A stretch of DNA of 64,000 nucleotides, from the NCBI GenBank assembly GCA_027532905.1, contig JAPZUA010000002.1:186001-250000 (forward strand), written 5' to 3'. Below the pieces are notes generated by a model, which saw only the letters and a list, made by a program, of their open reading frames with translations, had not been told where the DNA came from and did no database searches. Positions 45,066 to 52,646 of the stretch are shown piece by piece. Source of the stretch: Magnetospirillum sp. (GTDB taxonomy: Bacteria; Pseudomonadota; Alphaproteobacteria; CACIAM-22H2). The position numbers and the translations under genes are program-made. Every line of letters starts with the position of its first letter. Within the stretch, counting starts at the first letter, position 1.

Positions 45066-45152
45066 CCCGGCTTGGCGGAATTGGTAGACGCAACGGACTT
45101 AAAATCCGTGGATCTTTCGATCGTACCGGTTCAAGTCCGGTAGCCGGGACCA
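45066..45152 (+). tRNA. tRNA-Leu (anticodon UAA)
   Basis: An 87-base class II tRNA with acceptor stem CCCGGCT (45066-45072) / AGCCGGG (45142-45148), discriminator A and encoded CCA (45150-45152). The D-arm GGCGGAATTGGTAGACGC is typical of leucine tRNAs. The anticodon loop CTTAAAA has TAA at 45100-45102. A long variable arm and GGTTCAAGTCC follow. The first base pair C1-G72 is less common than G-C. Confidence 0.95.
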
Positions 45153-45272: not shown

Positions 45273-45644
45273 ATGGGCTATCAGGGCTTCAATATGGCTT
45301 ACGTACCGATGCTGAGCGAAGTCGCCTACGACTATCGCCCGCCCGACGCAGGCTGTTTCGTCTACGGTGCGGACACACCGTGGGGCCGGCTCGAGGTTGA
45401 AGTGACGGTGACCGACAGCGGCATCTACGCGGTCGAAGTGTTCCACACGCAAGACGGCGCTGCGCGCGCGCCGTTCCGCCCGGCCCTCGACGATGCTTAC
45501 CATTGGTCCACGCTACATCCCGAGCAGGCGGCCTTGTTCGCCGCGACCGTGGCGGCGCGCTATCTCGAACAGCGCGCGACCGGCGAGGCGACGATGGATT
45601 TGGGCCAGCTGCAGCAATTGCTCGCCAAAATCGTCGGGCGCTAG
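45273..45644 (+). CDS. Hypothetical protein, 123 residues
   Basis: The family is not recognised. The protein is acidic and aromatic-rich at the start ([31 protein letters not shown]), with a predicted beta segment ([25 protein letters not shown]). The C-terminal part is helical ([23 protein letters not shown] and [14 protein letters not shown]). The C-terminal repeat of leucines could mediate dimerisation. A second ATG at 45294 is an alternative start. Its stop overlaps the stop of the convergent rimO by four bases. Confidence 0.65.
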
Positions 45645-47005
45645 ACGGTCCGTCTTCCGGTCAAATCGTAGGCGTCGGCCGAGGCGATCGCGACTTTGAC
45701 GATCTCGCCCACGCGCACGTCTTTGGCACCGCGGATCGTGACTTTGCCGTCGATCTCGGGCGCGTCGGCCTTCGAGCGGCCGATCGCGTTCTTGCCGTCG
45801 ATGCTGTCGACCAGCACGTCGATCGTGCGCCCGACATAGCGCTTGAGGCGCTTGGCGCTGATCTTCTGCTGGGCGGCCATCAGGCGATGCCAGCGCTCTT
45901 CTTTGACCGCCTCGGGCACGGGGTTCGCAAGTTCGTTGGCGGCGGCACCGGCAACGGGCTCGTATTTGAAGCAGCCCACGCGGTCGAGTTCGGCTTCTTC
46001 GAGCCAGTCGAGCAGGAATTCGAAATCGGCCTCGGTCTCGCCGGGGAAACCCACGATGAAGGTCGAGCGAACGGTCATGTCGGGCACTTGGCGGCGCCAA
46101 TCCTGGATGCGCTCGAGCACGCGTTCCTGGTTGGCGGGTCGGCGCATTGCTTTGAGCACGTTCGGTGCCGCGTGTTGGAACGGAATGTCGAGATAGGGCA
46201 GGATTTTGCCTGCCGCCATCAGCGGGATCACGTCGTCCACATGCGGATAGGGATAGACGTAGTGCAGGCGCACCCACACGCCGAGTTCGCCCAAGGCCTC
46301 GCAAAGATCGGTCATGTGCGCGCGCACCGGGCGTTTGCGCCACGGGCTCGTCGCGTGTTTGATGTCAACGCCGTAGGCCGACGTGTCTTGGCTGATCACG
46401 AGGAGCTCGCGCACGCCCGCAAGTGCGAGACGCTCGGCCTCGATCATCACGTCGCCTGCAGGCCGGCTCGCGAGTTTGCCGCGCATCGACGGGATGATGC
46501 AGAAGCTGCAGCTGTGGTTGCAGCCTTCCGAGATTTTGAGATAGGCGAAATGGCGCGGCGTGAGTTTGATGCCGTGTACGGGCACGAGATCGACATACGG
46601 GTTGTGACGCGGCGGTACCGCTTCGTGTACGGCGTTCACGACCGCTTCGTACTGGTGCGGGCCGCTCACCGACAGCACCTTGGGGTGCGTCTTGCGGATG
46701 AGGTCGCTTTCCGCACCCAGGCACCCAGTCACGATCACGCGGCCGTTTTCGGCCAGAGCTTCGCCGATCGCGTCGAGCGACTCCTGGCGGGCTGAATCGA
46801 GAAAGCCGCAGGTATTGACGATCACCGCGTCGGCGCCGTCGTAGGTCGGGGCGATTTCGTAGCCCTCGGCGCGCAGCTTGGTCAAAATGCGTTCGGAATC
46901 GACCAAGGCTTTCGGGCAGCCGAGGCTGACGATGCCAATGCGCGGGGCCGCGTTCGCGGATGCCTTTTTGGCGGAGGAGCGGGCGGGAGCGGAGGTTGGG
47001 GCCAT
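45641..47005 (-). CDS. rimO: Ribosomal protein S12 methylthiotransferase
   Basis: RimO is a radical-SAM enzyme that methylthiolates Asp88 of ribosomal protein S12. The 454-residue protein has the N-terminal UPF0004 cluster domain ([48 protein letters not shown]), the radical-SAM motif [21 protein letters not shown] and a C-terminal TRAM domain. The [12 protein letters not shown] form marks RimO and not MiaB. The N-terminal 18 residues are a basic, alanine-rich extension. ATG 47005 is the start that leaves this extension shortest. Confidence 0.95.
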
Positions 47006-47064: not shown

Positions 47065-47643
47065 TTAGCCGCTCGCTTCGGCGCGCGCGGGCGGCCGGTT
47101 GGCTTCTTCGTCGGTCGGCATTGCCGGCGGCGGGGCTTCTTCTTCCGACACGAAGTCTTTGCCGATGATCGCGCGCTCGGTCGGCGCGTTGCGCAGGCGC
47201 GTTTCGGTCCAGATCTCGACCAGTTCGGCGCGCCGCCGGTCGAACTGGATCGCGGTCAGTTTCTGGCGCGCCACGGCAATGCGCTCGCCAAGCCACGGGC
47301 ACATCACGGCGATCGCGTAGCCGCCGAAGCTTGCCCCCAATGCGATCGCCCAGGACCTGAGTTCGGTGTGCACCGGGCGCTGCGGGTCGAACAGGCCGCC
47401 CGTGACGATGGGGGCGATCGCCGCGACCGTCACGGTCGCCGCCGCCCAGCTCAAAAACAGCCGTTCGGGATGGCGGATCGCAAACGGGATCGCAGCCGGC
47501 AGCAGGGCGCCGCCGATGAAGATCAACAGGGCCGGATGCACGAGCACGATCGCGAGCAGGATCATGCCGACGATGCCGGCGATCGCGGCGATCAGCGCCC
47601 ACAGCAGCAAGCGGCGGGTCAGCGGGGTCTTGGGCTCGTTCAT
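47065..47643 (-). CDS. Hypothetical membrane protein next to the pseudokinase
   Basis: The family of this 192-residue protein is not recognised. Three or four hydrophobic helices are visible: [67 protein letters not shown] and [20 protein letters not shown] cytoplasmic tail rich in arginine and glutamate follows ([37 protein letters not shown]). The start overlaps the stop of the pseudokinase gene by four bases, so the two are made together and probably interact at the membrane. Confidence 0.75.
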
Positions 47644-49649
47644 CGGGCGCTTAGTTCGACGAACATCATGACGATGAGCCCGCCCATGCACGCGATCGAC
47701 AACAGCCCGTACGCCGCCTCGAGGCCGCGGTCGCGGCCCATGCGCTTGGCGCGCGCAAGCAGGCCTTCGCGGTCGGACAAGGCGGCGTCGAGCGCATCGA
47801 ACTCCTGCTTGGCCTCGGCGAAGGCGCGCGCGTCGGCGGCGCGGATGTCTTCGTCCATCACGAGATCGAACATCTCCGACACGTCGCCGCTGCTGGCCTT
47901 CTGCACGATCTGCGCGCGCAGCTTCTCGCGCGTCTCGGGATGGTGGATGTCCTCGATGACCGTGTCGGCCATGCGCAGGCACACTTTGGCGAGATTGGGG
48001 AAGGCCTTGCCGTCGCAATCCTGCTGGAAGCGGCCCGCAACGCGCAGCACCGAGGGTGCGGCGGTCTTGGTCGGTTGGTTGAGCTTGTGCCAATGCTGGA
48101 TGGCGCGGTCGGAGATCGCGGCGCGCGCGCCGAAAAAGCCGACCATGTGGCGGTCGAGCTTCGGCGCTTCGGGATCGCTGCAGGCTTTTTCGATGGGTTC
48201 GGCGAGATCGATATGGGTGCGCGCCCATTTTCCGGCCACGGCCGGCGACAGGCACGGCGCATCTGGGTTGAGCTTGTAGAGGGCGGCTTCCAGCGTGTCG
48301 CCGAAGCGCTCGTAGCTCTTTTCGATTTCCTGCAGGCGCTTGGTTTCGATGTCGACGAGGCCGAAGACGGCGGCCGTGCGCATCCACAGCGACACGAGCT
48401 TCGCGCCCAGCAATTCGCAGAATTCCTGGCGCCGCGGCGGATCGTTGATGATCTGCTGAAGCAAATGGCCGGCACCGGCCGGGAAAAAGGACAGCGACTT
48501 GTAGCGAATGGGGCCCGACGGATCGAGACGCATGATCGCTTTCGACAGTTCGACAGCCGCATCCGGCGCATCGTCGCTGCTCGATCGGCGCAACGCTGTG
48601 GCGGCGGTCGGTGCGGTGGGGACGGTCCCGACCGTCGAATTGTCCGCGATCCATTTGTCGATCGCGCCTTCGCGCACCAGCCGCATGCCTTCGGTCTGGT
48701 TGCTGAAAAGGGCCTGGGCAATTTCGCGCGCCGTGTCGCACTCGACGCTGCCGACCATGAAGGTCATGCGGCGGCGGCCGAGATTGGGGCGCTGGGTCTG
48801 GTCGGGGCGCCGACCGCTTGCCCATTCGCTGAGTTTCTGCAGGTCCCAGCGCAGGCGCACGTCGTCTTCGGTGAGGCCTGTGATCATGTCGATCATGTCG
48901 CGCGGGATCGAGGCAGTGTCGAGGAGGGCGGCTTGCGAACTGTAGCGCAGTCGACGCTGGATGATTTCGGCGTCCTCAGCACCTTCGCCCGGCATCTTGC
49001 CCGAGGCGAGCGCATAGATCGTGAGCCCAAGTGCGAACAGATCGTCGGCCGGGCCGGGCGAACCTTTGGACTCGCGCTTGGCAAGCGCCCGTTCGATCGT
49101 CTCGAATACGGACGGCTGGTCGTAGCCGGGCGGGCACAAGGTCGCAGGCCCAAGCGTGAACAGGGTCTGCTTCGTGTCCATCGAGAAGATGTTGTCGGGC
49201 CGGATGCTGCCATGCGCCTGGCCTGCGTCGAACAACGCCCCCAACGCCGCGATCGCGGGCCGGATCAAATTGGTGGTCAGGAGCTTGGCATTGTACGCGC
49301 CCCACATTCGGCGCGGCGGCGCGGGCGCTATCGGCTGTTCGTAGACGAAGCCGTAATGGTCGGGCTTGCCCGGCAGCGGCAAAGCATCGTGGTGGAGCAG
49401 CTTGAGCAGCCCCGCCCGGTCGATGGATTGCGAGCGGCGCGCCGCCTCGATGCGCACGCCCGGTGCCGGCGCGCAAATATAGGCCATCAGCGGCATGTCG
49501 GGATGGTCGACATGGCGTGCAGCAAAGCACGGCGCCCAAGCGCGCGAATAGTCGAGCAGCGGTTGGTCGAGCCGGATTTGGTAGTCGCTGCCGAAAGGCA
49601 GCAACATGTTCAGCGTCGAGCGCGGCGTGCTGGCAAAAACATCGGTCAC
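47640..49649 (-). CDS. Membrane-anchored protein kinase-like protein (probable pseudokinase)
   Basis: This 669-residue protein has an N-terminal kinase-like region (about 30-290). The catalytic loop reads HGSIRPDN (His146 to Asn153) where active kinases have HRDLKPEN, so the catalytic aspartate is replaced by serine. The DFG position reads [24 protein letters not shown] matches the DxxxLG segment of subdomain IX. The middle part is helical and unrecognised. A C-terminal coil ([26 protein letters not shown]) leads to one membrane helix ([20 protein letters not shown]). It is coupled to a small membrane protein. Phosphotransfer is unlikely; a scaffold or other nucleotide-dependent role is inferred. 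Confidence 0.75.
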
Positions 49650-50994: not shown

Positions 50995-52014
50995 TCAGTG
51001 TGATTCATAGATAGCCCAGCCAGGTGCGGCCGCATCGCTCGATAGCCGTTTGAGGTGTCGGGCAACGCCATAGAGGTCCCAGACGGCTTGGCATGCCTCG
51101 AAGCTCATTGAGCCGTCGCCTCCCCAAACCATGTAGTGGCTGCCGGCCGGCAGATGGCGCAATGCGGCGTCGACCCGCCGTGTCCAGAACGCGAGCGGCG
51201 TCTCCGGGGTTTGCGACAGCGGCTGCCAGCGATTGGCCATCAGCGAATGCACGAGCTGGTCGTCGATCGTATATTCGTCGAGACCGCGCGTCGGCGGATT
51301 GACGGCGGCGAAAAGCGGGGCATTGAACTTGATCCGGGGGGCGACGTCTTTCATGTCGGCGCAGAACAGTTTGGCCTTTGCCGGCCCGATCGCGTCGATG
51401 GCGGCGTTGAGATCGCGGACAAGCTGGCCGACCACCGCGGCCGGGCGGCGCGCGCGTGCCAGGTAAGGCCGCCAATCGGGATCGCGCAGCTTTTTGAGCT
51501 GGGCCGCATCGTGGCTGTAGAGGATCTCGAACCCGTCCTCGACCGAGCGCGCAAACCCGAGAGCCCAGCGCACGGCGAGATATTGCAGCCCGGCGCGTTC
51601 GGCAGCGGGGACCCGTGCGTGGTAGAGCCGGTCGAAGACGGCGCAAACCGGTTCGATCAGATAGTCGCAAGCGAAATGGAAAGTCGGCACGTGCGGGTGG
51701 AGGGCGGGACGCGCCGCCGCCAGCAGGGCTGCAACGCGGGCCGGATCGATCCGGCGCCCGCCGAACAGGAACTGCGCGGCCAGATGCGAGCGCGGCGCAA
51801 AATCGTTGACCGCCAAGCGGCGCACACCGCGTGCGGCAAACACCGTCGGCATCAGGCACGAGCCGGCCGTGAAATCGACCATGGCGAGGTCTTTCCACCG
51901 TGCTTGCGGCAATATGCGGGCATAGGCATCGACGATTTCGGGCACCCAATCGGCGATGGTGCCGTCGAGCGGCAGCATGGCGCGGCGCAGGATGGCGAGC
52001 GTTTTGGCGTTCAT
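50995..52014 (-). CDS. Unknown protein with DNA-methyltransferase-like motifs
   Basis: This 339-residue protein is not assigned to a named family. Near residues 46-80 it reads MVDFTAGSCLMPTVFAARGVRRLAVNDFAPRSHLAAQ, which resembles the SAM-binding motif of adenine methylases (DxFxGxG followed by a strand ending ND). Around residue 255, FAAVNPPTRGLDEYTIDDQ resembles the NPPY/DPPY catalytic motif, with threonine in place of tyrosine. A separate region FCADMKDVAPRIKF sits between. No target-recognition domain or restriction partner is evident. It overlaps the rhomboid gene by four bases. Confidence 0.7.
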   Translation of the reverse strand: MNAKTLAILRRAMLPLDGTIADWVPEIVDAYARILPQARWKDLAMVDFTAGSCLMPTVFAARGVRRLAVNDFAPRSHLAAQFLFGGRRIDPARVAALLAAARPALHPHVPTFHFACDYLIEPVCAVFDRLYHARVPAAERAGLQYLAVRWALGFARSVEDGFEILYSHDAAQLKKLRDPDWRPYLARARRPAAVVGQLVRDLNAAIDAIGPAKAKLFCADMKDVAPRIKFNAPLFAAVNPPTRGLDEYTIDDQLVHSLMANRWQPLSQTPETPLAFWTRRVDAALRHLPAGSHYMVWGGDGSMSFEACQAVWDLYGVARHLKRLSSDAAAPGWAIYESH

Positions 52015-52646
52015 GGTTGGCGTTGCGACCCTGCAAGGAGAATGGCGGCAAGGGCAATGCCGCCGAAGAAACCGCCCAGATGCGCGACCCAGGCAATGGA
52101 ACTGCCGTCCGTGCCGGGAAAGCCGAGAATGCCGAACAGCACCGTCGGGATCGCCCACATGGCGGCGGCCCCCAACAGCCAGCCGGGGCTGCCGCCATTG
52201 CCCTGGCGCATTGCCACGAGCACGCATCCGACTAGCCCCGAAATACCGCCCGACGCCCCGATCATCGGCTCGATGCTGTCGGCGTAGATCGCGAAATGGG
52301 CACCCGCCGCGATGGCGCCGCTCAACAGATAGAGCGACAGCATCGACGCCACCCCGAAGCGGCGCTCCACGCCCGACCCGAAGGCCGCCAGCATGACCAT
52401 GTTGATCGCCAGATGCACCCAGTCGCCGTGCAGGAACATGTAGCTGAGCGGCGAGACGATTCCCGACAGTCCGAGAGCTGCATCGCCGGAGAATCGTGCC
52501 GGCGTGAAGCCGAAGGCGTCGTTTGCAAGCCACACTGTGCGCGATTCGAACAGGCGCAAGGCCCCGAAGATGCCGACATTGACCACGATCAATGCAAGCG
52601 TGAGCGGCGGCAGGTTAATTGCTGGTTCGCGTTGGCTGGTGGGCAT
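52011..52646 (-). CDS. Rhomboid-family intramembrane serine protease
   Basis: This 211-residue membrane protein has six hydrophobic helices. The active-site serine lies in IGASGGISGLVGCVL (GxSG), the catalytic histidine in IAWVAHLGGFFGGIAL, and the conserved LSYMFLHGDWVHLAINMVMLAAFGSGVERRFG covers the loop-1 and helix-2 asparagine/histidine region. All catalytic residues are present. The ATG at 52646 gives a short cytoplasmic N-terminus. A TATATA box on the minus strand at 52682-52687 could be its -10. Confidence 0.92.
   Translation of the reverse strand: MPTSQREPAINLPPLTLALIVVNVGIFGALRLFESRTVWLANDAFGFTPARFSGDAALGLSGIVSPLSYMFLHGDWVHLAINMVMLAAFGSGVERRFGVASMLSLYLLSGAIAAGAHFAIYADSIEPMIGASGGISGLVGCVLVAMRQGNGGSPGWLLGAAAMWAIPTVLFGILGFPGTDGSSIAWVAHLGGFFGGIALAAILLAGSQRQP

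Follow-up and report, generated by a model that had tools for sequence, protein, structure and literature searches.

A pair of overlapping genes in an alphaproteobacterial genome probably specifies an obligate two-protein module of the inner membrane, in which a pseudokinase would act on a four-helix partner protein as its scaffold or switch. The pair lies in a 64,000-nt stretch of Magnetospirillum sp. DNA (hereafter the window; GCA_027532905.1, contig JAPZUA010000002.1, positions 186,001-250,000 of the forward strand; GTDB lineage Bacteria; Pseudomonadota; Alphaproteobacteria; CACIAM-22H2). The product of the first gene would be a pseudokinase in the cytoplasm, fixed to the membrane by a single C-terminal helix (a tail anchor), and that of the second a four-helix membrane protein with its N- and C-termini inside, as predicted by the positive-inside rule, and its last helix extending into the cytoplasm. 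The two proteins would bind each other, probably via a stalk helix of the pseudokinase (residues 600-668) and helix 95-163 of the partner, and the pseudokinase would act without phosphorylation, as a scaffold or conformational switch.

Table 1. Features of the pseudokinase-partner locus, in window coordinates.
Feature	Position	Strand	Basis
Gene for predicted tail-anchored pseudokinase, 669 aa, GTG start	47640..49649	-	ORF and ortholog family
Gene for membrane partner, 192 aa, four predicted helices, the last running to residue 163	47065..47643	-	ORF, hydropathy, model
Kinase-like domain, about residues 13-280	48810..49613	-	AlphaFold2, Foldseek, VIA-align
Degenerate catalytic loop HGSIRPDN, residues 146-153	49191..49214	-	Sequence, 64-member alignment
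LGP at DFG position, residues 166-168	49146..49154	-	Profile alignment to MK2
C-terminal domain, mostly helical, predicted cytoplasmic, residues 290-600	47850..48782	-	AlphaFold2, profile searches
Predicted C-terminal transmembrane helix, about residues 642-668	47646..47726	-	Hydropathy, AlphaFold2
rimO-like radical-SAM/TRAM gene, directly downstream of partner, outside the module	45641..47005	-	Pfam

Inspection of the sequence confirmed the coordinates given in the first-pass annotation, as well as its remarks that HGSIRPDN stands in place of HRDLKPEN and that DFG is absent (LGP being found instead). The four-base overlap that it had described between the pseudokinase gene and a small multi-pass gene is the ATGA at 47640-47643, common to the 669-aa and 192-aa ORFs. 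The Pkinase model of Pfam scores the window protein at 18.5 bits, under its cut-off of 31.7, and is matched at E<=0.01 by 52 of 64 family members; a profile of the family finds PDB kinases at 1.6e-12. An AlphaFold2 model obtained from a 64-sequence input (pLDDT 88.9, pTM 0.84) gave 1869 matches to PDB entries at E<=0.001 in Foldseek, the best 50 of the 1869 being all kinases or pseudokinases (top TMt 0.82, to 8edh_C). In VIA-align, whose rows cover mainly residues 13-280, a Z of 24.6 was reached with WNK3 (5o21_A; 251 residues, 2.5 A, 14% identity). A two-lobed protein-kinase fold is thus confidently predicted for the 669-aa protein. A structure prediction lacking such a fold had been named beforehand as a possible refutation of the annotation; since the model and its structural matches are kinases, that refutation fails. 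WNK kinases are the nearest solved structures by Z, but Z falls by small steps below WNK3, and no special WNK kinship is therefore claimed. WNKs, too, are without the usual beta-3 Lys; they are active eukaryotic kinases with the HRD Asp.

Residues E183 and D203 are invariant in the family (64/64, and 25/25 in a more divergent alignment, A1), and R267 is kept in 62 members of the 64-member alignment (A3) and in 25/25 of A1. By a profile alignment to MK2 and general kinase anatomy, we take these to be the Glu of the APE motif, the Asp of helix alphaF and the Arg with which that Glu pairs. Registration of the catalytic columns was by the alignment to MK2 as well, with 64 family members aligned. 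At the position of the HRD Asp these members have Ala (44), Ser (9, including the window protein), Gly (5), Asn (4), Glu (1) or Cys (1), and never Asp; the motif reads HR[ASG]IRP[DT]N in most of them, with His in 63/64 and Arg in 61/64. The catalytic-loop Lys is replaced by Arg throughout (64/64, and 21/25 of A1). The beta-3 Lys column is occupied by Val (33), Ile (27, as in the window protein), Leu (2), Ala (1) or Met (1), in surroundings that read A-L-[VI]; Lys is found there in 1/25 of A1. Strings resembling a glycine loop were picked up by a regular-expression search in 8/64 members, none of them aligned with the beta1-beta2 turn, whose columns are proline-rich in place of the glycine loop. 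Judging from these alignments, the structural residues of a kinase are retained while its catalytic chemistry is lost across the family, and pseudokinase status is a family-wide trait, not one of local decay. From this pattern we infer a non-phosphorylating role for the protein.

The region that follows the kinase domain (residues 290-600) is mostly helical in the AlphaFold2 model, with high confidence across most blocks. No non-kinase Pfam family was matched at E<=0.01 by any of the 64 members, and comparison of the domain with PDB sequences returned chance-like matches only (best 0.013 over 22 positions). A search of 26 genomes at E<=0.001 found the domain only in full-length-family genes or their fragments, and the 20 of 397 genomes matched in a phylum sample were all marked as the same class. 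Within the genomes and libraries searched, these comparisons place the domain in the pseudokinase family exclusively. Six of its polar residues, E454, Y458, C466, S468, D499 and H501, are identical in 64/64 and 25/25 sequences and therefore mark a putative functional site, which might recognise a ligand or client protein. An internal duplication (290-375 versus 376-460) seemed plausible from the secondary structure, but was unsupported by profile comparison (E 0.19). Beyond the domain, the predicted helix 600-668 ends in a hydrophobic stretch, 642-668 of 669 by hydropathy, which is the sole segment above the cut-off and agrees with the membrane helix that had been placed at the end of the kinase-like chain; a C-terminal hydrophobic helix is present in 127/127 distinct pairs. 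More tentatively, it seems conceivable that the kinase domain holds shape only and that the six invariant residues constitute the working site, be it a metal site, a ligand site or a new catalytic centre; the state of this site would be passed via the tail anchor to the four-helix partner as effector or channel. The pair would then represent an ancient, hitherto unrecognised alphaproteobacterial membrane switch, and the four forms in the genus of the window would each respond to inputs of their own.

The column of the DFG Asp (168) is less uniform than the others, with Asp in 27 members, Pro in 19, Glu in 17 and Gln in 1, and Asn153 is identical in 64/64; nucleotide or metal binding is therefore possible in some relatives. 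The same two counts would fit an active enzyme in disguise, some members of the family still binding ATP and transferring phosphate, AMP or glutamyl groups through non-canonical chemistry in the manner of SelO and SidJ, which are described as pseudokinases with new activities (PMC12599244). Such an enzyme is unlikely, given that the glycine loop and the beta-3 Lys are absent in the 64 aligned members and that the window branch has LGP, without Asp, at the DFG position.

The second protein of the module reads as a membrane protein with four membrane segments, to judge from predicted helices (7-35, 37-46, 48-55, 59-85 and 95-163; pLDDT 86.3) and hydropathy, consistent with its earlier description as multi-pass. 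Its model had no Foldseek match at E<=0.001 and 41 at E<=10 (best E 2.0). In a Pfam search over 59 partner members, 12 families were each hit in 1/59, and no family shared among the 59 was found. An HMM built from the partners at 50 named loci, with the window partner left out, finds the window partner at 6.3e-10 among 9652 ORFs plus the window partner itself. The acidic-basic tail noted earlier fails as a family feature: past the conserved EWG helix, tail length among relatives ranges between a few and some 40 residues (30 of 59 rows). Three extra partner genes without an adjoining pseudokinase occur in each of two genomes, G036 (L164, L165, L166) and G157 (L171, L172, L173), and the partner may therefore also function on its own; one of these extra genes follows an ABC transporter operon of the iron/B12 type.

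No Pfam or NCBIfam model recognises the pseudokinase or the partner above cut-off. A 2025 review of bacterial Ser/Thr kinases distinguishes 42 families, five consisting of pseudokinases throughout and two rich in them, and describes bacterial pseudokinases as largely unexplored by experiment (PMC12599244). Literature searches on pseudokinases, including those of Alphaproteobacteria and Rhodospirillales, found no paper on the family of this pair. As far as searched, then, the description of the module as undescribed is supported: its family differs from those reviewed pseudokinase families whose described motifs could be compared (GLW, DLHK, DYD and ActPs3; PMC12599244), and may exist under another name in the underlying 42-family study. 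Thus, the proteobacterial GLW family is described as having GLW in place of HRD and poly-Leu in place of the beta-3 Lys motif (PMC12599244), in contrast to the His and Arg (63/64 and 61/64) and the A-L-[VI] found here. The actinobacterial ActPs3/MviN pseudokinases resemble the present protein in being linked to a membrane segment; however, the ActPs3 catalytic region is given as Lsidhpsr, with a hallmark deletion in the activation loop (PMC12599244), whereas here that region is aligned and conserved, and the host group differs. DLHK and DYD proteins are characterized by retention of HRD and/or DFG (PMC12599244), unlike the present family (HRD Asp in 0/64, no DFG in the window protein), and active Ser/Thr kinases possess the HRD Asp, beta-3 Lys and glycine-rich loop that are absent here. 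The LanL model (class IV lanthionine synthetase, NF038150) scores 36.8 bits over residues 178-294 only, versus a cut-off of 650 bits. Matches to the anti-phage kinases PD-T4-6, MkoA and MAD6 reach 1.2e-5 at best for the window protein, PADLOC matches being weak and nearly all within the kinase domain.

By working principle, the nearest analogue appears to be EssB/YukC of type VIIb secretion, a membrane pseudokinase that acts as a scaffold. In the description available (PMC12599244), it likewise has a pseudokinase domain in the cytoplasm, devoid of every catalytic motif, and a single membrane helix, and works with other membrane proteins. This precedent of a transmembrane pseudokinase scaffold (PMC12599244), together with the coupling to a polytopic membrane protein, would fit a subunit of a secretion or assembly machine, with the pseudokinase docking parts of a larger membrane apparatus. 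Unlike EssB/YukC, however, the present protein has a 310-residue helical domain after the kinase domain, its membrane helix (642-668 of 669) is the last element at the very C-terminus, its hosts belong to a different bacterial class, and no secretion genes were found adjoining. In EssB the pseudokinase domain is followed by a membrane helix and then by an extracytoplasmic domain, and the protein is not known to be tail-anchored. Furthermore, the pair has no constant third companion: its neighbours are housekeeping genes and change where the pair has been relocated or split. A machine of this kind is thus improbable.

The second outcome named beforehand as a possible refutation was a failure of the two genes to co-occur in relatives. 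Among 387 genomes of the class, 130 (about a third) have both genes, none has the pseudokinase only, one has the partner only and 256 have neither; this refutation fails as well. The figures leave out the pseudokinase rows with E above 1e-60 (15 of 145): 14 fall in the E range from 1e-4 to 1e-7 and resemble ordinary kinases, and G376 (7.3e-26) is an intermediate pseudokinase row without a partner match, which, if counted, makes one pseudokinase-only genome. The sole partner-only genome (G026) has a weak match (E 3.2e-4). Fisher's test gives 1.6e-104 for the co-occurrence, a value that ignores phylogeny and, because co-occurrence follows phylogeny, is not a probability. At the level of loci, the partner HMM finds a match at 93 of 100 (L034-L133), 50 of these partners being the training set; in the untrained loci L034-L053 it does so in 19/20. 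The seven loci without a match are L047, L055, L070, L074, L082, L121 and L125, of which L055 and L121 stop shortly after the pseudokinase at a sequence end. A genome-wide search located the partner elsewhere in all seven genomes: in that of L055 it adjoins another pseudokinase copy, and in the other six the two genes are on different contigs. The class scan contributes two further cases, G287 and G217, which makes eight genomes in which the genes are apart and both are kept. In three of the eight (L197, L199 and L201) the partner is oriented towards rpoH, past which comes rluD (both named in L197, homologs of them in the other two), and the pseudokinase is on another contig; from this arrangement, the locus has been split with both parts kept. 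The neighbourhoods of unlinked or extra partners had only rpoH-rluD (the three loci) and pairwise matches in common.

Over the 45 loci in which purA immediately precedes the pair, the pairwise divergence seen in the pseudokinase correlates with that of the partner at r 0.937 and with that of purA at 0.792; the partial correlation is 0.834, a value that would also arise from any shared change of rate. A looser control of 48 loci gave r 0.269 for pseudokinase and purA because purA is sometimes non-adjacent, and the stricter set was used. Pseudokinase-partner units are also found in tandem (pseudokinase-partner-pseudokinase-partner; L181, L182, L183).

The clusters commonest near the pair in the 100 loci are purA-, hisZ-, rluD- and rpoH-like, and genes resembling serA and serC lie beyond them on the upstream side; purA is near the pair in 68 loci and rpoH in 40. 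The two genes are usually adjacent, often between purA and rpoH, as in Azospirillum thermophilum (serC, hisZ, purA, pseudokinase, partner, rpoH), where they are labelled "serine/threonine protein kinase" and "hypothetical protein"; the annotated records examined label the pseudokinase as a Ser/Thr kinase. Since the order purA-pseudokinase-partner-rpoH is often conserved, the adjacency could be inherited, and the genes might be mere neighbours that share transcription at the purA locus through common descent and perform independent jobs. This is made quite improbable by the eight genomes that keep both genes apart, by relocated paralogs that move as a pair, and by the count of 0/387 genomes with a pseudokinase (E<1e-60) and no partner.

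The obligate membrane module is favoured by these same observations, and its distribution marks the pair as an old alphaproteobacterial family rather than a local oddity. It would add to the libraries searched two protein families and one C-terminal domain absent from them. Its partner is defined and its hosts include named isolates (Magnetospirillum, Azospirillum, Roseospira), so that deleting both genes and testing for binding would be straightforward. Family members were also seen on contigs titled Asaia, Stygiobacter, Rhizobium, Paceibacterota and Marinimicrobia (L068, L071, L084, L099, L119 and others); these MAG titles are probably wrong, all other sightings of the family being in Rhodospirillales-like Alphaproteobacteria.

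The window genome has four paralogous pairs, the window copy being one of them. The other three (L034-L036, each with a partner) are at G000 C2:721083-723017, C1:433226-435073 and C1:780355-782328, and ten genomes of the same genus have four matches each. The L035 paralog has the purA/hisZ context. The window copy lies between rimO and a PuuE-like gene, likewise in near orthologs, with rimO as neighbour in 3/4 of them and the fourth (L006) at a contig end. Gene order thus identifies the window pair as a relocated duplicate of a class-wide, mostly single-copy module. A 51-protein tree groups the window copies with the second paralog (100/100) at the end of a long stem, a type of branch that, as the tree tool warns, may be joined falsely. 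Compared with the closest orthologous pair (95% and 94% identity), the pseudokinase has a dN/dS of 0.065 and the partner one of 0.109, more distant comparisons being near saturation and left out; both window frames are under purifying selection. That the window copy, as one of four on a long shared branch, is a decaying functionless paralog is hardly credible and was rejected, given this selection, the intact frames and the conserved context in near orthologs.

Another relocated copy, in Azospirillum ramasamyi (L195, NZ_CP029830.1 736280-738325), has phaC and a sensor histidine kinase gene beside it in place of purA. The gene that immediately precedes the fourth paralog (L036:4893-6242) encodes a 449-aa protein without Pfam or NCBIfam match, homologs of which lie near the pair in four other loci. 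Elsewhere in the window, a 397-aa ORF (50995-52188) is without NCBIfam match, and a longer ORF (50995-52533) without Pfam match at 1e-5. A tRNA gene (Rfam RF00005, 58.3 bits) is found at 45066-45149, close downstream of an ORF that encodes a CinA-like, molybdopterin-binding domain.
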